DNA of 59,918 nucleotides from positions 1 through 59,918 of the forward strand of contig SXID01000197.1 in NCBI GenBank assembly GCA_005772955.1, given 5' to 3'. The position numbers and the translations under genes are program-made. Positions 3,568 to 37,412 of the stretch are shown here, in pieces. The stretch's first letter is position 1; each line of letters begins with the position of its first letter. The notes beneath the pieces are model-generated. The model ran no database searches. It was not told where the DNA came from and was given only the letters and a program-made list of their open reading frames with translations. The DNA is from Planctomycetia bacterium (lineage in GTDB: Bacteria > Planctomycetota > Planctomycetia > Gemmatales > Gemmataceae).

Positions 3568-5052
3568 TCACGCTTTCCGCAGTCGCGCCCAGTAGCCGCC
3601 GTCGGACGGGCATCCCGGCACGGAGTGGTGTTCCGCTTCCAGCGACATACTCCGCATTCCGCGACACACCGCCTTCACTACGCCTTCATTCTCGTCAGGT
3701 TCGATGCTGCACGTGGAATACACCACTGCTCCGCCCGGCTTCACGCGCTCACTGGCGAGGATGAGCAACCGCGTCTGAAGCCGGATGAGATGTTCGAACT
3801 CGTTCGGCTTCAGACGCCACCGCACCTCAGGTCGACGACCGAGTACGCCCATGTTGCTGCACGGCACATCGACGAGCGCGGCGTCGAAGGGGCCGGGCGG
3901 AAGGTCGCCTTTCTCGTCCAACACGACGGTTTCCACGCCCTTGATGCGGAGCCGCTGACCGAGCGCTGTCACTGTTTCGAGGCGCTTCGGGTCGATGTCG
4001 CCTGCGGTGACACGCCCGCGGTTGTCCATCAGTTCCATCAGGTGCGTCGTCTTGCCGCCGGGGGCGGCGCAGGCATCGAGGACGTGCATCCCCGGTTGCA
4101 CGCCGAGCGCGGACGCGACGAGCATCGACGAATGATCCTGCACCGCGAAGTCGCCTTCGGCGTAGCCGGGAAGTTCGCGGATGGGATGGTGTTCCGGGAA
4201 CCGGAGCGACTGCGGATGTTCTCCGGGTTCCGCGTCAATCGTTTGCCCGGCGAGTTGGATGCGGTACGATTCGCGGCTCGCGTGGAGCTTGTTCACGCGA
4301 ACCCACAGCGGCGGTGGCGCGTTGAACCAGAAGCCCAGGCGGGTGCATTCGTCGGGGCCGTAGCGTTCGAGCCAGCGGTTCGCGAGCCACGGCGGGAACG
4401 AGAACGCCGCCGCGAAGTAGCCCGCCGGGTCGGTGATGGGATTGGGGAGGATGGCGCGCGTGAGGCGGCGGTAGCGGCCGAAAGTCAACCCCTCCCCAAC
4501 CCCTCCCCTAAGAAGGGAGGGGCTTTCAGCAGAAGATGCGCGGTTCTGCGCCTCTGTGTTTTGCTTTTCTCCCCCTCCCTTCTTAGGGGAGGGGGTTGGG
4601 GGGAGGGGTTCCCACGCGAACCCGACCGCGTCCGCGCCCGGCTTGTCGGTGAACTCGTCCGTCACCAACTCCGACACGCGGCGCATGATGCTGTTGACGA
4701 ATCCCTTCGCCTTCATCGCGCCGACGTAGGGTGCAAGTTCCACCGTTTCGTTGACGGCCGCGTGCTTGGGTACGTGCGTGAGGAACGTGAGTTGGAACGC
4801 GCCGAGTCGCAGCAAGTCCCACACGCGCGGCTGAACCGCGTGGAGCGGCAGTTGGATGAACGGCTTGAGGATCGCGTCGAGCGTGCCGGCCCGCCTCGTG
4901 ACGCCGAACACCAGTTGCGTAACGAACCGCCGATCCTGCGGTGCAAGGTTCGCGGCGCCGAGCGCACTGTCGATGAGTTCAGCGGCGAAGCCGTCGTGCG
5001 CGCGCGACCGGTGCAAAACGTCGGCCGCGATCTGCCGTGCGGTGATCGTCAT
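3568..5052 (-). CDS. rsmB: 16S rRNA (cytosine-967 C5)-methyltransferase RsmB
   Basis: This 494-aa protein has the RsmB layout: an N-terminal NusB-like RNA-binding domain (about 1-135) and a C-terminal Rossmann methyltransferase domain. Visible motifs are the SAM loop DACAAPGGKTTHL, motif IV VDVPCSNMGVLGRRP, and motif VI YSTCSIEPDENE, which supplies the catalytic cysteine. It methylates 16S rRNA in the cytoplasm. Residues about 149-189 (PTPSPKKGG to RGGVGEG) are not native: they are translated from a 124-bp inverted repeat at the boundary between the two domains. The ATG overlaps the fmt stop by 4 bp (ATGA), indicating translational coupling in a def-fmt-rsmB operon. Confidence 0.92.
   Translation of the reverse strand: MTITARQIAADVLHRSRAHDGFAAELIDSALGAANLAPQDRRFVTQLVFGVTRRAGTLDAILKPFIQLPLHAVQPRVWDLLRLGAFQLTFLTHVPKHAAVNETVELAPYVGAMKAKGFVNSIMRRVSELVTDEFTDKPGADAVGFAWEPLPPTPSPKKGGGEKQNTEAQNRASSAESPSLLRGGVGEGLTFGRYRRLTRAILPNPITDPAGYFAAAFSFPPWLANRWLERYGPDECTRLGFWFNAPPPLWVRVNKLHASRESYRIQLAGQTIDAEPGEHPQSLRFPEHHPIRELPGYAEGDFAVQDHSSMLVASALGVQPGMHVLDACAAPGGKTTHLMELMDNRGRVTAGDIDPKRLETVTALGQRLRIKGVETVVLDEKGDLPPGPFDAALVDVPCSNMGVLGRRPEVRWRLKPNEFEHLIRLQTRLLILASERVKPGGAVVYSTCSIEPDENEGVVKAVCRGMRSMSLEAEHHSVPGCPSDGGYWARLRKA
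4487..4610. repeat. 124-bp inverted repeat inserted in frame in rsmB
   Basis: The left arm (4487-4522) begins AACCCCTCCCCAACCCCTCC and the right arm (4572-4610) is nearly its reverse complement, with about 50 bp of loop. The frame is kept open through the whole element. Related C/T-rich versus G/A-rich arms occur in gaps at 26059-26180 and 37300-37412, which makes this a dispersed family. Confidence 0.9.
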
Positions 5053-6044
5053 GCGAGCACTTCCGGCCCGAACCGCATGCCTTCAACGATGGGGTAGCCG
5101 CGCAAGAATTCCTCCGCCGTCATCTTCTTCTTTCCCGCGGGTTGCAGTTCGAGGATTTCGATGATGTCATGAAGCGTCGCCGGCCCGCACCGCACCCCAA
5201 TACCGCCACCGACCAAATCAAGTAACTCTCCGACTTCGTCTTCCAAGGCACGAGCCGCGGGATGAAACCCACCGGCTTTGCTCATGATCACGCGCATCGG
5301 TTCCTTGCCGGGGCGGTGTAGGAACGTGTACGCGGTCGGCCACGGTTGCATCGCGCGCACGAATCGCGCAATGTAATCCGCTGGGCGAGTCCAGTCGATC
5401 AACCCGAATTCCTTCTTGATCTTCGGAGCCTTCGTCACGCGCGCCGGGTCTTGCTTCACGCCTTCGACCGCACCGCCAGCCGCGTACTTGCGCGCGGCTT
5501 CGACCGCCATTCGCGCGCCGAGCGTCGAAAGGCGCGCTTCGAGGCTACCCGTCGTGTCACCGGGGAGGATGTCGAGCGCTTCTTGAAGGATCATGTCGCC
5601 CGAGTCGAGACCGGGCGTCACCTTGATGATGGTCACGCCGGTTTGCGCTTCGCCACCGAGAATGGCATACGCAACCGGGGCCGCGCCGCGGTACTTCGGT
5701 AGCAGTGAGGCGTGGACGTTGATCGTGCCACGCGTCGGAACCGTCAGCACCTCACGCGAGAGAATCTGCCCGTAGGCCGCGACGACGAGTAGGTCGGGCT
5801 GCATCGCGCGGAGTTGTTCCAGGCCTTCCGGTGTGTTGATGCTCTCGGGTTGGGCTACGCGGCAAGCCGTGGAGTGGGCGATGTTCGCCATGCCCTTGCC
5901 GGTTTGGCGCGTGCTGCCGCGCTTGCTACCGGTGTCGCGCTCCGGTTGTGTGACAAGCCCGACCACGTCAGTGCCAAACGCACCGATGAGCGCCTCGAAG
6001 GTCGGCTCCGCGAACGTCCCCGTTCCCATCATCGCTATTCGCAT
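5049..6044 (-). CDS. fmt: Methionyl-tRNA formyltransferase
   Basis: The 331-aa protein formylates initiator Met-tRNA using 10-formyl-tetrahydrofolate. It shows the Rossmann start MRIAMMGTGTFAEPTFEAL, the loop NVHASLLPKYRGAAP with the catalytic Asn and His, and TPGLDSGDM with the catalytic Asp. The C-terminal beta-barrel tRNA-binding domain is present, ending near the usual family length of about 310-320. The ATG at 6044 was chosen because the frame upstream belongs to no known domain. It follows def by 11 bp and overlaps rsmB by 4 bp. Confidence 0.95.
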   Translation of the reverse strand: MRIAMMGTGTFAEPTFEALIGAFGTDVVGLVTQPERDTGSKRGSTRQTGKGMANIAHSTACRVAQPESINTPEGLEQLRAMQPDLLVVAAYGQILSREVLTVPTRGTINVHASLLPKYRGAAPVAYAILGGEAQTGVTIIKVTPGLDSGDMILQEALDILPGDTTGSLEARLSTLGARMAVEAARKYAAGGAVEGVKQDPARVTKAPKIKKEFGLIDWTRPADYIARFVRAMQPWPTAYTFLHRPGKEPMRVIMSKAGGFHPAARALEDEVGELLDLVGGGIGVRCGPATLHDIIEILELQPAGKKKMTAEEFLRGYPIVEGMRFGPEVLA

Positions 6045-6055
6045 GCAGCACTCCG

Positions 6056-6610
6056 TCACATCTTCGGTTCCAGGTCCGGCGGCAGGTCGCCCTTCTTCTT
6101 GGCCTTCTCGAAGTCCGCGACGAATTTTTCGAGATCGCGCTGGCTGCGAGACAGGCCGAGCGTACCCATCTTGTCGATGAACAACGTGCCCTGAAGGTGA
6201 TCGATCTCGTGCTGCCACACGCGGGCCGCGAGGTCGTGGCACGTCATCTCGAACTTCTCGCCCTTCAGGTTGTACGCCTGCGCCACCACGGTTTTCGCGC
6301 GACGAACGTTCTGATACAGACCGGGGAAGCTCAGGCACCCTTCGCGGTCGCTCACGGTACCGCCGCGTGACTCGATGATCACCGGGTTGATCGCGACCAC
6401 TTCCTGGTCGGGCCGGTCCGCTTCGCCTACGAAGTTCATCACGATCATCTGATAGTCGAGCGTGACCTGCGGCGCCGCAAGGCCCAGTCCTTCGGTCTTG
6501 TACATCAGTTCCAGCATCTCGGCGGCGGCCTTCTGCACGTCCGCGTCGATGGCGGTCACGGGTCGCGCCTTCGCACGGAGCGCCGGGTGCGGGTATTTCA
6601 CGATCTTCAT
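6056..6610 (-). CDS. def: Peptide deformylase
   Basis: The 184-aa protein removes the N-formyl group from nascent chains. All three metal-site motifs are present: GLGLAAPQ, EGCLSFPG with the metal Cys, and QHEIDHLQG with the two metal His and catalytic Glu. The start MKIVKYPHPALR is typical of the family; an upstream ATG at 6667 would add 19 unlikely residues. It is the first gene of the def-fmt-rsmB operon, a conserved functional pairing of formylation and deformylation. Confidence 0.96.
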   Translation of the reverse strand: MKIVKYPHPALRAKARPVTAIDADVQKAAAEMLELMYKTEGLGLAAPQVTLDYQMIVMNFVGEADRPDQEVVAINPVIIESRGGTVSDREGCLSFPGLYQNVRRAKTVVAQAYNLKGEKFEMTCHDLAARVWQHEIDHLQGTLFIDKMGTLGLSRSQRDLEKFVADFEKAKKKGDLPPDLEPKM

Positions 6611-6796: not shown

Positions 6797-9184
6797 ATGA
6801 CCCGCCTCTCCCTCGCGCTCCTCGCGCTAGTCAGCCTCGCGAGCGCCGCACGCGCCGCGGACGTTCCCGTTGTCGGTGATGTCGAAGGACAACCGCTCGC
6901 CGCGAACGCGGGCCGCATCGTGAAGGCGCTCGACTTCCTCGGCACGCCGCTCCCTGAAGACATCGGCAAGGCGCTAGCAAAGGCGATTGAAGACAAGGAT
7001 GCGAAGAAGGTTCAGGAGGTTCTCGACAAACACGTACTGTTCGCGATTACGATCAACCCGGAAGCACGCATCAAGGTCGCGAAAGGGCCGGGCAGCACGT
7101 CGCTTCAGCAAGCGGGTTGGACGCCGGTACTCGTAAAAGTGATGAACGACAGCACCGTGAAGAAGCAACTCAAGATCATGAGTCCGCAGGCCGGCGACCG
7201 GTTCAGCGGGCGCGGCGACAAGAACCCGAAGGACGATCCCAAGATCGCGGAACGGTTCCTCGGCGTCGAAGTGTTCACCGCACCGCCGCTGACCGACACG
7301 CTCAGCGGGCTTAAGGTCGAATACGCCATCGCCCTCATCTACTCCAACGAGAGCGGCAAACGCGAGGCGACGATCGGCTTCGACATCGGGCAAGGCAATC
7401 AGGACTTGGGATTCCGCGGGGAAACGCCCGTGCTGTTCGAGGTGAAGCCCGCCGTGCCCGTGAAGGTGAAGATCACCGACTTCGACGGCAAGCCCACAAC
7501 CGGCCGGTTCCTGATCACCGACGCGAGCGGTCACGTGTACCCACCGCAAGCCAAGAGGCTCGCCCCGGACCTATTCTTCCAAAAGCAAATCTACCGACAC
7601 GACGACGGAGTGATTCTCCTGCCGCCGGGTAAGTTCACCGTGCAGTACGGGCGCGGGCCGGAGTACTCGCTGAAGACGGCGGAACTCGTCGTACCCTCGG
7701 TCAACGCGCGATCGCCGCAGTTCAGCGCGAAGCTCGACCGGTGGGTGAACCCGGCCGACTACGGGTTCTTCAGTGGCGACCACCACATCCACGCGGCCGG
7801 TTGCGCGCACTACACGAACCCCACCGAGGGCGTACTGCCCGAACACATGTTCCTGCACGTGAAGGGCGAAGGGCTAAACGTCGGCTCGTGCCTCACCTGG
7901 GGGCCGTGCTACGACTACCAGCGCAAGTTCTTTGAAGCGAAGCCGTGGCAAAAGAGCGAGCCGTTCACGGTTCTCAAGTACGACGTGGAAGTGTCTGGCT
8001 TCGGCTCACAGGCGCTCGGGCACGTGTGCCTGCTGAACTTGCGCGACCAGACGTATCCCGGTTCCGACGGGACTAAGCTCAAGGGCTGGCCGACGTGGAC
8101 GACACCCTTGATGAAGTGGGGCAAGGATCAGGGCGCGGTGACCGGCTACGCGCACTCCGCGAACGGCCTCGGCGTGAACCCCCAAGCGGCGCCGAAGCGG
8201 TTACTCGCGGCGCTCGACGCGAACAAGGACGGCATCATCAGCAAGGACGAAGCGAAGAACGGCTGGTGGCCGCTGCCGGAACCGTTCGCAACCATCGACG
8301 CGAACAATGATGGCGACATCAGTCCGGCGGAACTGGAGAAGAGTGTCGCGCGGGTTCTCGACCGGCTTCCGAACCTGAACATCCCGAACATGGACGGCAT
8401 CGGCGCGCAGGAAATCTGCGTGACCACCGCGATGGGCGTGTGTGACTTCATCAGCGCCATGGACACCGCGCGGGTGCTCGAATGGAACTGCTGGTACCAC
8501 ATCATGAACTGCGGCTTCCCGCTCAAGGCGAGCGGAGAAACCGACTTCCCGTGCATCAGCGGCAGCCGCGTCGGGCAGGGGCGTGTGTACGTGCAACTCG
8601 GTAAGAAGACCGACATGGTCGATTACGGCGCGTGGTGTCGCGGGATCGCGCAAGGGCGCTCTTACGTCTCCGACGGCTACGCACACGCGCTCGAATTCGG
8701 CGTGAACGGCACCGCACCCGGCTACGGCGACGTGAAACTCGACAAAGCCGGCACGGTGAAAGTATCCGCGAAGGTCGCGTTCGCGCGTGACGTGTCGCTC
8801 GGCACCGCGCCCGGCGCGCAGGTGCCCGTCGGCAACGTCCGCAAAGTGGAACTCGTGGTGAATGGGAAGGTGGTCGCGTCGAAGGATGTCGCGGCCGACG
8901 ACAAGACGCACGACGTCGCGTTCGACGTGAACATCGACAAGAGTTCGTGGGTCGCGATCCGTCACTTCCCGCAGATGCACACGAACCCGGTGAACGTGAT
9001 CATCGCGAACAAGCCGATCCGCCCGAGTCGCGAGAGCGCGAAGTGGTGCATCGGCGTGATCGAGCAACTGTGGAAGGTTCGCGGACCGGGGATCAAGGCC
9101 GAAGAACGCGACGAGGCCGAGAAGACGTTCAAGAAGGCGATCGAGATGTACAAGAAGATCGCTTCCGAAGCCAGTGACGAGTAA
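6797..9184 (+). CDS. Exported PHP/CehA-type metallohydrolase-like protein with EF-hands
   Basis: The 795-aa protein starts with a signal peptide (TRLSLALLALVSLASAARA) after a GAAGGAG ribosome site. A middle region has the metal-binding pattern GDHHIHAAGCAHYTNP near residue 328, as in CehA/McbA-type PHP hydrolases, with later histidines such as TGYAHSANGLG. Two EF-hand-like calcium loops sit inside the domain near residues 471-515 (DANKDGIISKDE and DANNDGDISPAE). The C-terminal part is beta-rich, then helical to the end. The substrate is unknown. The stop codon is the first triplet of a heptamer array that leads into a long hairpin. Confidence 0.7.
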   Translation: MTRLSLALLALVSLASAARAADVPVVGDVEGQPLAANAGRIVKALDFLGTPLPEDIGKALAKAIEDKDAKKVQEVLDKHVLFAITINPEARIKVAKGPGSTSLQQAGWTPVLVKVMNDSTVKKQLKIMSPQAGDRFSGRGDKNPKDDPKIAERFLGVEVFTAPPLTDTLSGLKVEYAIALIYSNESGKREATIGFDIGQGNQDLGFRGETPVLFEVKPAVPVKVKITDFDGKPTTGRFLITDASGHVYPPQAKRLAPDLFFQKQIYRHDDGVILLPPGKFTVQYGRGPEYSLKTAELVVPSVNARSPQFSAKLDRWVNPADYGFFSGDHHIHAAGCAHYTNPTEGVLPEHMFLHVKGEGLNVGSCLTWGPCYDYQRKFFEAKPWQKSEPFTVLKYDVEVSGFGSQALGHVCLLNLRDQTYPGSDGTKLKGWPTWTTPLMKWGKDQGAVTGYAHSANGLGVNPQAAPKRLLAALDANKDGIISKDEAKNGWWPLPEPFATIDANNDGDISPAELEKSVARVLDRLPNLNIPNMDGIGAQEICVTTAMGVCDFISAMDTARVLEWNCWYHIMNCGFPLKASGETDFPCISGSRVGQGRVYVQLGKKTDMVDYGAWCRGIAQGRSYVSDGYAHALEFGVNGTAPGYGDVKLDKAGTVKVSAKVAFARDVSLGTAPGAQVPVGNVRKVELVVNGKVVASKDVAADDKTHDVAFDVNIDKSSWVAIRHFPQMHTNPVNVIIANKPIRPSRESAKWCIGVIEQLWKVRGPGIKAEERDEAEKTFKKAIEMYKKIASEASDE

Positions 9185-9270
9185 CGAGTGACGCGTGACG
9201 AGTAAAAGCCGAAGGCCAGAAGCGTTGATGCCTCTGGCCTTCGGCTTTTACTCGTCACGCGTCACTGTTT
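9182..9270. terminator. Long hairpin, convergent-gene terminator/repeat
   Basis: Arms of 34 bp at 9187-9220 and 9233-9266 pair perfectly around the loop AGCGTTGATGCC. The outer part is made of 7-bp units (TAACGAG, TGACGCG, TGACGAG) mirrored on the other side. It lies between two convergent genes and probably terminates both. The central core matches the hairpin at 246-289. Confidence 0.75.
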
Positions 9271-9271
9271 C

Positions 9272-10660
9272 CTACGGCAGCGGGATGTCCTTGAACTCGA
9301 ACGCGACCTCGTGCGTGACCGTGAGCCACTCGGTGAGAACCAGGCGGGCCGGCGGGCCGAGTTTCACGTTGCTGGGGCGCCCGGTGCGGCGGTCTTCCGG
9401 CCCGAACATTATTGTCATTTGCAGTCCGCCGGGGGTATGGTTGCTCGCCTGCAACCCGTAGTTGAAGAACCGGTTCCCCTTGTCGTCAGACAGCTCGATC
9501 CGCTGCTGGATGTTGGATGCCCACTGGTAATCGTCACCACGACGCGGGTCCACCGGGATGCGGCTCTTCGCGGTCACGTTCATCGTGTACACGCCCTTGT
9601 TGTTCGCGTCTTCGTCCACGGTGGTCACCTCCAAGTCGGCCGTGCGCCCGGTGAACGTCTTCTTCTTCACCTTCAGCGGGTCCACAACTACCACCTCTGG
9701 CGCGGTGCCCGAGAGCAGTTCGACCCGCACGCGACCCTTCAGCGACTTGATGGTGGTCGCGCCGCGATCACCGCGAATCAGGTTCACGCTCATCGACATG
9801 TTGTGCGAGCGGCTGCCGCGGTTGTAGTACCCGCTGCGGTACTCAAAGTCGTTGCGCTCCCGCGGCGGTAGCAGTGTACCGCCCAAGTTGTCGGTCGCGA
9901 CCAACAGTTCCGGTTGCGAGATGCCAAGCATCGGGTTCTTCGGCTCCGAGTTAACCTGGAAGCTCAAGCTCATGTACTCGGTGACGCGTTCCTGTCCGCC
10001 ACGCTTACTGATGTTGGACAACTGCACGTTGCGGTTGCACTGAATGTTCGTCGCGAGGAACCGGAACGGCCCGGCGTACGCGACGTACGGGTTCATCGCC
10101 TCATGGTTGTAGACGCGGACGGTGTCATCCTCGTACTCCGTATACACGGTGAGTCCGGCCGCGTTCGCGACGGTGTCGATGGCCTGCCAGAACGAGGCGT
10201 TGTTGAACTCGAACGAGTGCTTCGTGTCTGATTGCTCGCCGAACTCGATCTTGTAGCCGGTTTGCTTGGCGATGTCCGCGACGATCTCCTTGGCGGTCCG
10301 ATCCTTCGCGTTGAGCGTGACCCGCTTGGCGACGACGAGCCGGTCGAAGTCCATCCGCTTGACGAGTACCGCGAGCCGGCGCTGCACTTCCGGGTTCTCG
10401 GTGCTGAGGAGTACGCGGCGCATGTACGGCAGCGCCTTCTCGCCCTTCGCGGCGAGGTCGCGCCCGGCCTGTTCGCGGGTGCGCCAGTCTTCGGAGCCGA
10501 GATCCTTGATCATCTGCTCGATGACCACGTCGCCCGGCCCCTCTGCGACAAGCGGCATCGGGGCTGGCGACTCGGAGATGTAGTAGCGTTCTTTTCCTCC
10601 GACCGCACACGTCGCGAGAATCAGCAGCCCAAACACTGCGGTGATGGCCATCGTTCGCAT
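9272..10660 (-). CDS. Exported HEAT-repeat-type protein, function unknown
   Basis: The 462-aa protein has an N-terminal signal peptide (RTMAITAVFGLLILATCAVGG). A short HEAT-like pair follows (MIKDLGSEDWRTREQAGRDL, then ALPYMRRVLLSTENPEVQRR, residues about 50-95). Next comes a segment resembling secretin/TonB short N-terminal domains (VTLNAKDRTAKEIVADIAKQ and TVANAAGLTVY), and a long beta-rich C-terminal half. This build, damage-prone repeat plus STN-like fold, recurs in planctomycete exported proteins, but I know no function. ATG 10660 was chosen over a TTG two codons upstream. Confidence 0.6.
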   Translation of the reverse strand: MRTMAITAVFGLLILATCAVGGKERYYISESPAPMPLVAEGPGDVVIEQMIKDLGSEDWRTREQAGRDLAAKGEKALPYMRRVLLSTENPEVQRRLAVLVKRMDFDRLVVAKRVTLNAKDRTAKEIVADIAKQTGYKIEFGEQSDTKHSFEFNNASFWQAIDTVANAAGLTVYTEYEDDTVRVYNHEAMNPYVAYAGPFRFLATNIQCNRNVQLSNISKRGGQERVTEYMSLSFQVNSEPKNPMLGISQPELLVATDNLGGTLLPPRERNDFEYRSGYYNRGSRSHNMSMSVNLIRGDRGATTIKSLKGRVRVELLSGTAPEVVVVDPLKVKKKTFTGRTADLEVTTVDEDANNKGVYTMNVTAKSRIPVDPRRGDDYQWASNIQQRIELSDDKGNRFFNYGLQASNHTPGGLQMTIMFGPEDRRTGRPSNVKLGPPARLVLTEWLTVTHEVAFEFKDIPLP

Positions 10661-15959: not shown

Positions 15960-16039
15960 GAAGGTTTAGCGTCCGCCCCAGCGGGGCGGCTTTCTCGACG
16001 GAAAGACACCGCCCCGCCGGGGCGGACGCTAAACCTCTT
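15960..16039. repeat. Inverted repeat between permease genes
   Basis: Arms of about 30 bp (15960-15990 and 16009-16039) share GGTTTAGCGTCCGCCCC and its complement, with a GCGGGGCGG inner part. The core motif CGCCCC-N4-GGGGCG, followed by CGCTAAAC, recurs at 48590-48613 and in part at 49211-49239 and 59781-59800. Confidence 0.85.
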
Positions 16040-18300: not shown

Positions 18301-18324
18301 TTGCGCTCCCGAGTCCGTTGTCTT

Positions 18325-18460
18325 TGTCCCTCTCCCCTTGCGGGAGCGGGTGGCGAGTCTTCGAGCCGGGTGAGGGGTGAGCGCCTTTTGTGGGCTAACG
18401 TTTCACTCCTCACCCGGCCGCGAGGCGCGGCCACCCTCTCCCGCACGGGGAGAGGGCGAA
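18325..18460. repeat. Large inverted repeat in export operon
   Basis: The gap between adaptor and ATPase holds CCCTCTCCCCTTGCGGGAGC near the left and CCTCTCCCGCACGGGGAGAG near the right, with CCGGGTGAGG / CCTCACCCGG inner arms. It belongs to the same family as the short hairpin inside the TetR gene end (19862-19887). Confidence 0.8.
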
Positions 18461-18498
18461 AACCAAAGCACGCCGTTACCCTTCCACCCGATTCGGTG

Positions 18499-25550: not shown

Positions 25551-25562
25551 GGGAAGCTCCAG

Positions 25563-25637
25563 GTGAACCCCGCCCGCAAGGGCGGGGGTGGATGAGGGCG
25601 GGCGCCGAACACCCCCGCCCTTGGGGGGGGGGTTCCC
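25563..25637. repeat. GC inverted repeat between capsid-cassette genes
   Basis: The left arm (GAACCCCGCCCGCAAGGGCG, then GGGGT) and right arm (ACCCCCGCCCTTGGGGGGG...) form a long stem. The same family lies at 28232-28306. Confidence 0.85.
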
Positions 25638-25645
25638 CGCGACCA

Positions 25646-26020
25646 TCAGAAGGTCTTCTTCTGTTCGCCGATGAGTGCCGACACGGGCACCGAGGGGTCG
25701 GGGCCTGTGACGATGCCGACGTACCGCACGTAGCGTTTCGTACGGCGGAACGTGATCGTCTGGATGTTGTTGATCGCGTCCACCGATTCGAACTCGGCGT
25801 CGTTGATCGCGGACCAGGATGAGCCGTCGGTGGACTCCTCGATGTGACCGGCCCAAGCGACATCGTCGGAGATCGCACCGACCTGTTGAATCGCGAAGCA
25901 CGGCCCGTCGGCGGTAATCAGGTCGATGGTGGACCCGGTCGTGTTCGCGGTGCGCACGGCCGGCACTACGCCAGCGTACACCGCGACAGCGGAGGCGAGA
26001 TCGTTCACGTGTGTGGACAT
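25646..26020 (-). CDS. Small beta-rich phage-type structural protein
   Basis: The 124-aa protein is rich in beta strands (ISDDVAWAGHIEESTDGSSW, then TITFRRTKRYVRYVGIVTG). This layout, an expected-value plus stress term and a T-KRYVRY core, is common among small structural proteins of tailed-phage heads. I assign it by that pattern and its place between capsid and connector genes. ATG 26020 is chosen; the frame upstream to 26071 includes repeat sequence. Confidence 0.55.
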   Translation of the reverse strand: MSTHVNDLASAVAVYAGVVPAVRTANTTGSTIDLITADGPCFAIQQVGAISDDVAWAGHIEESTDGSSWSAINDAEFESVDAINNIQTITFRRTKRYVRYVGIVTGPDPSVPVSALIGEQKKTF

Positions 26021-26058
26021 GGAAGGTTCCTTGAAGGTGAGGTGAGGTGGTGAAGAAG

Positions 26059-26180
26059 ACCTACCCCCCAACCCCCTCCCTGAAGGGAAGGGGAGAAAGA
26101 GTCGGGCACGTCGTTACGCGTCAGCGAAGCACCTGTGTCGGACTCCCCTTCCCGGTCAGGGAGGGGGTTGGGGGGTAGGT
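26059..26180. repeat. Inverted repeat downstream of the capsid gene
   Basis: Left arm 26059-26095 (ACCTACCCCCCAACCCCCTC...) and right arm 26143-26180 are near-complementary with about 48 bp between. It is related to the element inside rsmB (4487-4610) and to 37300-37412. Confidence 0.9.
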
Positions 26181-26188
26181 CGCCACGA

Positions 26189-27607
26189 TCACGCGACCAG
26201 CAACTGGTCGCAGAGCACGAAGCTGGCGGCGTGACGGGGGCCGGCGTCGATGTGCTGGATGCCGCGAAGGTACGTCATGTCGTTCTGCAGCGCCGTGTCG
26301 CCGAGGCCCGACGCGAGGAACTCCATCACGCCCATCCGCGCAACGATCCAGTCCGGGAAGTACCCCAACAGCATGTAGGTGAGGTTCGTGCCGCTGCCCT
26401 TCACGCGTGCGGCCGACACCTGCGCGGACCGCACCACGCGTGTTCCGTACAACTCGGCCGGCGGACCCGACGACGCCGACCGCATGTCGCGGAACAGGAA
26501 CGGACCCTTGCCGTCGTCGGCGCTCACCGCGTCGGCGCGGCGGTTCATGAGCGCCGCGTACATCGCCTTCCGCAGCACCCACGCGGTCGGCGATTCGACC
26601 GCGTCCGGCAGTTTGCTTTCCATCGTCGCGATGTCAGCCGGGGTGAACGTGTCGCCGTTCGCGCCGGTGGTACTCGCGGTGTGCGTCGCGATGCCGCTGT
26701 AGGTCGTGATGCCCTTGATCTGCGTGCCGCCGGTTCCTTCGAGCATCGCGAGATCGGCCTTCAGCGCCGCGGCGCGGGCCATGTCCAACCGCACCAATCC
26801 TTCCGCGCTCGGGCTGGCAAACCGGAGCAGTTCGTTGTTGATCTTCACCAGAACACCGAGTTTCTTCGCCTGAAGGTCGAGGTTCCCGGTCGTCGGCTGG
26901 CTCTCGGTGATCGCGCTTCCCTCGCCGACCCAGTACGCGGTGCTCGCGGCGGTGAGTTTGGGGAATTGCACGCGACCGTTCGGCGGCAGTGCCACTTCGC
27001 GTGCCCCAGCCACCGCGAACACTTCGAGGCTGCGTTGCAGGTCGATGAGTTCGCCGAGCATGGGCAGCGGCACCATCGTTCCGCCCGCGGTGTCGGTGAT
27101 CGTCCCGAGCGCCTTGCGCAGCGGATTGAGTCGGCGCCCGATCCAGTCGGCTTCGTCGGGGTCGTACTTCTCCGCGTGCGCGGTCATCTTCAGGTGCAGT
27201 TCGTCGCGCAACCGCCGGCCTTGCGGCTCGAACACCGGCAGGTGCGCCGACGCGAGCGGCACCAGGAACGACTGCTGCCCGTGATGCGGGGCGAAGCCGT
27301 AGCCCGCGTACAGGTCGCGAAGTTGTTGGTGCGCGTGAATCTCTTCCTTCGCCTGGTCCGCGCCGACGAAGCCGAGCGCGAACGCAGCGGCCTTCAGCAC
27401 GCTGTACCCCGCGGAGTCGGCGCACACCGGCCCCGACGTGACCCACGGCACCCGGCGTTCCACGCGGGTCGCCTTTTCGACGGCGGTTGTGGCTTGTTGT
27501 TCGATGAACGTCACCAGTTCGTCGCGGGACTGGAACTTGTCGGTTGGTAAGGGAGCGGTAGACACGGGAGGCCTTTCGTGTTTGATGTTTGGTGAGGTGT
27601 TATTCAC
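26189..27607 (-). CDS. HK97-type major capsid protein
   Basis: The 472-aa protein has the HK97 capsid build: a helical N-terminal delta-like domain (residues 1-about 150), then TAGGTMVPLPMLGELIDLQR, an E-loop/A-domain core (FPKLTAASTAYWVGEGSAIT, NNELLRFASPSAEGLVRLDM), and GTGGTQIKGITTYSGI. Conserved NxxTAxWVxE and GTG.. patterns are visible. The start is a GTG overlapping the protease stop by 8 bp, which couples translation. It could form a true capsid or a domesticated shell; no packaging gene is near. Confidence 0.85.
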   Translation of the reverse strand: MNNTSPNIKHERPPVSTAPLPTDKFQSRDELVTFIEQQATTAVEKATRVERRVPWVTSGPVCADSAGYSVLKAAAFALGFVGADQAKEEIHAHQQLRDLYAGYGFAPHHGQQSFLVPLASAHLPVFEPQGRRLRDELHLKMTAHAEKYDPDEADWIGRRLNPLRKALGTITDTAGGTMVPLPMLGELIDLQRSLEVFAVAGAREVALPPNGRVQFPKLTAASTAYWVGEGSAITESQPTTGNLDLQAKKLGVLVKINNELLRFASPSAEGLVRLDMARAAALKADLAMLEGTGGTQIKGITTYSGIATHTASTTGANGDTFTPADIATMESKLPDAVESPTAWVLRKAMYAALMNRRADAVSADDGKGPFLFRDMRSASSGPPAELYGTRVVRSAQVSAARVKGSGTNLTYMLLGYFPDWIVARMGVMEFLASGLGDTALQNDMTYLRGIQHIDAGPRHAASFVLCDQLLVA

Positions 27608-28231: not shown

Positions 28232-28306
28232 GGCGAACCCCGCCCACAAGGGCGGGGGTGATTGCAAGTGGTGGATTCACCCCCGCCCTTGCGGGCGGGG
28301 TTCGCC
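28232..28306. repeat. GC inverted repeat overlapping the portal gene end
   Basis: Arms 28232-28261 and 28277-28306 (GGCGAACCCCGCCC...GGGCGGGGTTCGCC) pair with few mismatches. The right arm contains the TGA stop (28277-28279) and last codons of the portal gene, encoding GEPRPQGRG. Confidence 0.88.
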
Positions 28307-37299: not shown

Positions 37300-37412
37300 C
37301 CGAAGAACCCTCCCAACCCCTCCCCGAAGAAAGGAGGGGCTACGGACAGAAGGCGTGGGTTCGCTACCTTCTCTTACTCCCCCTTCCTTGTTTAGGAAAG
37401 GGGGTTGGGGGA
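37300..37412. repeat. Inverted repeat upstream of the PQQ gene
   Basis: Left arm CCCTCCCAACCCCTCCCCGA, then AGAAAGGAGGGG, and right arm CCCCCTTCCTTGTTTAGGAA, then AGGGGGTTGGGGG, are complementary with mismatches. It belongs to the same family as the element inside rsmB. The remaining gap to 37765 holds no clear gene, only a promoter-poor AT-richer stretch. Confidence 0.8.

Follow-up and report, generated by a model that had tools for sequence, protein, structure and literature searches.

The rsmB gene of the window (the whole 59,918-nt stretch of DNA analysed here, from a Gemmataceae draft genome of 5.93 Mb in 278 contigs, labelled G000) raises the question of how a long palindrome comes to lie within the reading frame of a conserved enzyme, and why it is kept there. 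The gene is assigned by the NCBIfam rsmB models (TIGR00563, 335.5 bits against a cut-off of 269.05), and the inverted repeat that a preliminary description placed inside it is real: its arms are ungapped, 32 nt long, 91% complementary and 49 nt apart, and the minus-strand RNA of positions 4480-4615 folds at -90.1 kcal/mol versus -54.9 +/- 4.1 kcal/mol in 200 dinucleotide-preserving shuffles (z -8.6), none of which folds as stably. The frame stays open through the palindrome, as had been proposed, in a 494-aa ORF with Pfam domains on both sides (Table 1). The VPCS and TCS stretches, which we take to be the catalytic cysteine motifs of RsmB, are likewise retained. They align with E. coli RsmB/Sun (PDB 1sqf), and the neighbouring def and fmt genes upstream of rsmB are intact by Pfam, in keeping with the same description. 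Two details are to be refined. An insert of about 41 residues had been proposed, and it is present, although the gain relative to the empty site of the relative G015 is slightly larger (135 nt, 45 codons); moreover, the insert does lie between domains, but more exactly between the NusB-like and the ferredoxin-like domain, the latter preceding the methyltransferase domain. The AlphaFold model of the protein has a mean pLDDT of 55, with residues 131-202 and a large part of the NusB domain below 50, and gives no usable evidence for a loop.

Table 1. Features of the rsmB locus in window coordinates.
Feature	Position	Strand	Basis
rsmB, 16S rRNA (cytosine-C5)-methyltransferase, 494 aa	3568..5052	-	ORF list; Pfam; NCBIfam
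RsmB/F methyltransferase domain, residues 315-472	3637..4110	-	PF01189
RsmF/B ferredoxin-like domain, residues 219-290	4183..4398	-	PF22458
Palindromic element, ~125 bp, RsmB residues ~148-189 (by position, linker)	4487..4611	.	match extent to other genomic copies; fold
Left arm of RsmB palindrome, shorter arm version	4491..4522	+	inverted-repeat search; version by eye
Hairpin unit core CCCTCCCCTAAGAAGGGAGG, exact match to dispersed pattern	4501..4520	+	pattern search
Spacer between RsmB arms, poorly conserved among copies	4523..4571	.	arm search; copy comparison
Right arm of RsmB palindrome, longer arm version	4572..4603	-	inverted-repeat search; version by eye
Second hairpin unit core, inverted, exact match to dispersed pattern	4574..4593	-	pattern search
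NusB-like domain, residues 4-127	4672..5043	-	PF01029
fmt, methionyl-tRNA formyltransferase, 4-nt overlap with rsmB	5049..6044	-	Pfam on 5052-5984; start codon by eye
def, peptide deformylase	6056..6610	-	Pfam on 6059-6610

The RsmB palindrome is one copy of a dispersed family. A 20-base arm pattern, allowing up to 3 mismatches, has 79 forward and 72 reverse matches in the own genome, against none on either strand for the reversed control pattern, and the full-length matches of other genomic copies mostly span positions ~4487-4611 of the window. Sixty-seven places were read, namely those among the matches listed (part of the 151 arm matches, and the full-length matches) together with their neighbours in the fetched loci; one of them, at window position 37318, matches weakly and with a single arm, and its status as an element is doubtful. 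Two inverted arms are held by 55 of the 67 places, around a spacer of 15-73 nt, a range from which L013 is set aside as a self-overlap of one arm. Each unit consists of a foot (GAAGAACC followed by a variable C/T-rich stretch) and a hairpin, which exists in a shorter and a longer version, and coding copies are found with either order of the arms and in several peptide readings. The GAACC/GGTTC-type ends and the inverted arms constitute terminal inverted repeats. By eye, GTAG or CGTC is absent from the hairpin foot, the feet reading GAAGAACC-like before the C-rich arms, and no target-site duplication is seen at RsmB (G000 versus G015 and G014) or at a flavoprotein gene (G000 versus G001), loci whose flanks have diverged. 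Rfam returns 12 matches at E <= 1, all below their own gathering score. Mobilisation by a RAYT stays unproven, because none of the eight Y1_Tnp loci, read with ~1.5 kb of flank where the contig allowed, contains an arm (<=5 mismatches) or a foot (<=2).

Palindromes of other types are present in the window as well. One with 36-nt arms of the CCTCCCTGAAGGGAAGG type lies between ORFs at 26058-26181, beside a Phage_capsid gene (26189-27607), and belongs to a different family; another, of the CCCTCTCCCCTTGCGGGAG type, occupies 18313-18471, where it separates an ABC ATPase ORF from the next same-strand ORF. Long inverted repeats that differ from these in sequence are found at 9180-9273, 15962-16036, 25553-25647 and 28232-28306.

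RsmB is one of many hosts. Copies were called coding when the frame is open through the element and codon usage is of the coding type on both sides, backed by Pfam, and such in-frame copies account for 29 of the 67 places in 28 host ORFs; three of the 29 show one arm only, leaving 26 two-arm coding places. Pfam matches are found in 24 of the 28 ORFs (the exceptions are L015, L019, L021 and L141), and the hosts include MutL, chorismate synthase, MnmE, UbiD, lipoyl E2, a carboxyltransferase, a Mur ligase and an FtsK-like protein, as well as polyprenyl synthase, the flavoprotein, a P-type ATPase, and ABC, amine oxidase and acyltransferase/AMP-binding proteins. Chorismate synthase, UbiD, the flavoprotein and the carboxyltransferase carry the insert within the extent of a single Pfam domain. 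Among the remaining 38 places, 19 lie between co-directional genes, with the upstream stop preceding the element, 4 between divergent and 3 between convergent genes; 7 are unclear, and in 5 the upstream ORF enters the element, so that at most 5 of the 67 copies are possibly gene-breaking. Even if those five are counted as broken, the frame is kept in 29 of 34 cases (p 6e-10 versus one third, a value that ignores shared descent and the scoring cut-off). The idea that the element is tuned to be stop-free was dropped because the non-coding copies barely exceed shuffles in open frames (2.17 versus 1.93 of six).

The same pattern recurs in relatives. A DNA search at E <= 1e-5 yields matches in 12 of 18 relatives from the genus and none in the other 6. 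Relatives' copies, taken as the listed full matches of this search with 14 candidates scored per genome, are in frame and coding in 9 of 14 cases in G012 (three contigs), 7 of 14 in G007 (one contig) and 5 of 12 in G001, where RsmB and AroC had already been read (7 of 14 with them), which gives 21 of 40 in the three relatives. Eighteen of the 20 ORFs scanned among these 21 have a Pfam match (L074 was left out of the scan), and the hosts include UvrA, an MgsA/RarA-type ATPase, an ATP_bind_3 protein, QueG and an RNB-domain exonuclease. Since the in-frame pattern is found again in genomes of one and three contigs, an assembly slip is unlikely, as the preliminary description had held.

At the RsmB junction itself, empty and filled sites coexist within the genus. 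RsmB matches were obtained in all 19 genomes searched, with both flanks on one contig in 18; the G005 gene, split between contigs, and orthologues lacking a flank were left out of the junction comparison. The insert is absent from G015, G003 and G014, which have 132-135 nt less than the window at this point, and the G015 protein, with its empty site, is 92-93% identical to that of the window. Both computational checks suggested in the preliminary description, for relatives that lack the insert and for further coding copies, thus speak for it. Repeat-type inserts of unlike families, recognised by eye, occupy the junction in ten genomes: family A, with CCCTCCCCTAAGAAGGGAGG arms, in G000, G001 and G018, the GCGGGAGAGGG type in G004 and G013, other repeat types in G006 and G016, and composites in G007, G009 and G012. 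The ungapped inverted-repeat test is failed by the inserts of G006, G007, G009 and G018. Nine of the ten are in frame, the exception being G013 (L044), whose insert of 200 nt leaves a remainder of 2 and contains a run of G. The junctions of G002 and G008 hold 42 and 33 extra nt, and longer linkers free of palindromes are found in G010 (+111 nt), G011 (+66 nt) and G017 (+66 nt). The observation that would speak against an insertion, an equally long linker of the same sequence type in relatives free of the repeat, is thus made only in part; linker length alone is therefore not diagnostic. A further species (L228) carries a triple repeat-type insert in RsmB, and a record of Gemmata sp. IIL30 (L224), a strain within this genus, has the same junction peptide as G009. 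The junction peptide of a public MAG named Singulisphaera sp. GP187 (L222) is the same as that of G001, and the name may be wrong.

Other genes show comparable loops. Orthologues of MnmE, polyprenyl synthase, the flavoprotein and chorismate synthase were read genus-wide. In the MnmE loop, G000 and G001 have family A, G015 has a CTCTCCCCTTGCGGGAGAG type, G016, G007 and G012 have CCCTCCCTGAAGGG types, and G003, G006 and G009 have CCTTCCC types, so that the sister genomes of the tree, G007 and G009, differ in family. The fewest family changes on the tree are 7 for MnmE and, for RsmB, 11 with all states or 6 for presence. In polyprenyl synthase, a single loop shows by eye at least six unlike inverted repeats (family A in G000/G001, different ones in G004/G006, G005, G008, G014 and G018); all 18 of its junctions keep the frame, and 6 of them pass the palindrome test. 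The flavoprotein site is filled in G000, G015, G009, G006 and G004, shorter and remnant-like in G007 and G012, and empty in G001; in G016 (L303) it holds a 415-nt out-of-frame composite with a stop. The chorismate synthase loop has family A only in G000 and G001 and another palindrome in G014, and is elsewhere an ordinary variable loop, long and palindrome-free in most species. Coding copies sampled regardless of orthology also coincide in gene and position in UbiD, the L015/L260 protein, lipoyl E2, a FabA-like protein, UvrA (G007/G012) and PSD1 proteins. The UbiD loop shows an apparent single unit in G000 (L149) and a full element in G001 (L263).

Over five genes, 26 of 89 junctions are palindromic, having a palindrome that exceeds those of all 60 shuffles and a length 24 nt or more above that of the shortest junction, and 23 of these 26 are in frame and stop-free (p 9e-9 versus one third, ignoring shared descent); in the exceptions, RsmB of G013, MnmE of G006 and the flavoprotein of G016, the frame is broken or a stop is held. 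The other 63 junctions are in frame except for MnmE of G009. The frame-breaking or stop-holding inserts (L198 in G006 MnmE, L200 in G009 MnmE, L303 and L044) may be real splits, frameshifting or sequence errors.

Comparison of spacers gives some indication of age. Between G000 and G001, the lipoyl E2 spacer shows 94% identity, and the insert is therefore probably inherited in these two genomes. The RsmB spacers of the same genomes are 61% identical and the RsmB and MnmE spacers within G001 94%, which places the arrival, or the overwriting, of at least one RsmB copy after the split. Selection on the inherited inserts appears relaxed on thin data: dN/dS is 0.47 for UvrA (G007/G012; flanks 0.05) and 1.5 for E2 (flanks 0.07), the insert values drawing on only 7 and 5 changes, respectively. 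For polyprenyl synthase the ratios are 0.64 (insert) and 0.15 (flanks), from two inserts that may be different copies, and the PSD1 pair was discarded since the genes are paralogous (56% identity). At the DNA level, the E2 insert (L006/L258) changes less than its flanks, as if homogenised or constrained.

The reading that best accounts for these observations, with a probability of roughly 0.78, is that non-autonomous mobile palindromes land often, and that copies that happen to be in frame in permissive loops survive, would be translated as Pro/Gly-rich filler and may later be exchanged. For part of this reading the DNA speaks directly: the copies are dispersed, lie in frame and conserve it, sites exist in empty and in filled states, and one site can hold unlike families. 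Translation, transposition in trans by some enzyme, and neutrality and disorder of the peptide are the parts that it would presuppose. In structure, the insert is a pair of REP-like hairpin units, set head to head across a variable spacer and with GAACC...GGTTC-type ends, and its family is one of several palindrome families that the genus carries as dispersed copies. Copies would land both between and inside genes; those that break genes would mostly be lost, and those in frame in surface loops or interdomain linkers would persist as filler rich in Pro, Gly, Ser and Lys, the persisting site in RsmB being the linker between the NusB-like and the catalytic parts. Once colonised, a loop may diversify: the resident may decay, be joined by additional elements or give way to a different family, either by a new insertion or by recombination of similar arms, two routes that these data do not separate.

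The strongest competitor holds that palindromes entered the loops a single time, in an ancestor, and that all apparent turnover is gene conversion between resident and other copies, with no fresh insertion. The C-rich feet common by eye to family A and the families of G003, G006 and G016 are in its favour, as are the RsmB and MnmE spacers of G001, which are as alike as conversion would make them, and the E2 insert, which between G000 and G001 differs less (5 changes in 41 codons) than its flanks (163 in 398). However, empty sites are nested among filled lineages in the tree and junctions (RsmB of G015, the flavoprotein of G001), so that gain or loss is needed in any case, and some families at the same site, as in polyprenyl synthase, have no arm sequence in common. 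Conversion as the sole process is accordingly rated unlikely, though it is the most credible of the alternatives.

Considerably less probable is that the inserts are kept for a function, either in the protein, as an extended linker, or in the mRNA, as a strong hairpin at which translation would slow between domains. The recurrent filling of particular loops, the interdomain position in RsmB, MutL, E2 and an ABC protein, and the very stable fold would all suit such a role; yet close relatives do without the insert in RsmB (G015) and in the flavoprotein (G001), many inserts lie within a domain and not between domains, the few changes in the UvrA and E2 inserts point to relaxed selection, and the non-coding copies are hardly more stop-free than shuffles. 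Removal of the insert at the RNA level, or its bypassing by the ribosome to give a protein without it, is very improbable: the very long hairpin in the coding strand and the out-of-frame cases in MnmE (G006, G009), RsmB (G013) and the flavoprotein (G016) would fit, but a skipped insert need not keep the frame, whereas 23 of the 26 palindromic junctions keep it free of stops, and at the worst count 29 of 34 copies in the own genome keep it. Origin of the palindrome by chance, by misassembly or through a contaminant contig, suggested by the fragmented draft, has a negligible probability in view of the empty reversed-pattern control, the shuffled folds, the related-type RsmB inserts in other genomes of the genus and the in-frame pattern of G007 and G012.

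Insertion of mobile palindromes with survival of the in-frame copies has known parallels. Rickettsia palindromic elements (RPE) were reportedly described by Ogata et al. in 2000 and 2002, and protein-coding palindromic repeats of Wolbachia, which lie in coding genes as here, reportedly by Ogata et al. in 2005. In the portions available of two accounts, RPE are palindromic repeats of ~105-150 bp with a stable stem-loop (PMC2229807, PMC10969869), comparable to the present ~125 bp, and 44 copies are counted, nearly half of them in ORFs (PMC10969869); they occur both in intergenic DNA and, in frame, within a wide variety of protein genes, as do the present copies, 29 of 67 in frame and 26 of 67 intergenic. 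The elements described here differ in belonging to another phylum and presumably in sequence, in their two G+C-rich units around a variable spacer and in the filling of the same loops with unlike families by several species of one genus. The likeness is one of behaviour, and the earlier comparison is apt in the sense that the element works like an RPE; membership is not claimed because the host is a planctomycete.

REP/BIME sequences are similar in being short hairpin units (20-40 bp), often inverted dimers 20-100 bp apart and often downstream of genes, according to the accessible part of the survey of tagged REPs by Di Nocera et al. 2013 (PMC3733652). The same part lists Planctomycetes among REP hosts and, in other species, intragenic REPs, including those in UvrABCD and RecBCD genes and different REPs of two Xanthomonas species at about the same recB site (PMC3733652). 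The present family differs in the foot, which has no GTAG/CGTC, in having no copy near the eight Y1_Tnp genes, in a much larger coding share and in the many instances of a shared site that a single genus provides. Those bacterial MITEs that have open frames (ERIC, Correia, YPAL, RU-3, QMITE) are, in the excerpts at hand, small and non-autonomous, with terminal inverted repeats, a stem-loop and occasional in-frame fusions, as here (PMC2229807, PMC5896051); in contrast, no target-site duplication or parent insertion sequence is seen among the loci read here, and the hosts are largely conserved housekeeping genes. No account of palindromic elements within planctomycete coding genes was found in the literature, as far as searched, which agrees with the preliminary description, and within the same search the phylum, the high coding share outside Rickettsia and the repeated filling of the same loops by unlike families appear to be new.

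Protein-coding palindromes are best known from Rickettsia, intracellular bacteria with small genomes. The same behaviour is met here in conserved genes of a lineage whose genomes measure 5-10 Mb, and roughly half of the copies sampled are in frame. Because 19 genomes present empty, filled, nested, decayed and swapped loops, the possible making of new protein segments by selfish DNA becomes traceable step by step, and the filled loops constitute a natural map of sites at which enzymes tolerate ~40 extra residues. A bolder extension, tentatively put forward at somewhat below even odds, is that the genus keeps permissive loops (in RsmB, MnmE, polyprenyl synthase, the flavoprotein, UbiD and others) as standing sites for the landing or exchange of palindromes, which unrelated families enter, swap and nest in with the frame held, in a process that would be ongoing. 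If this is true, mobile DNA would be a main source of loop change in these essential enzymes.
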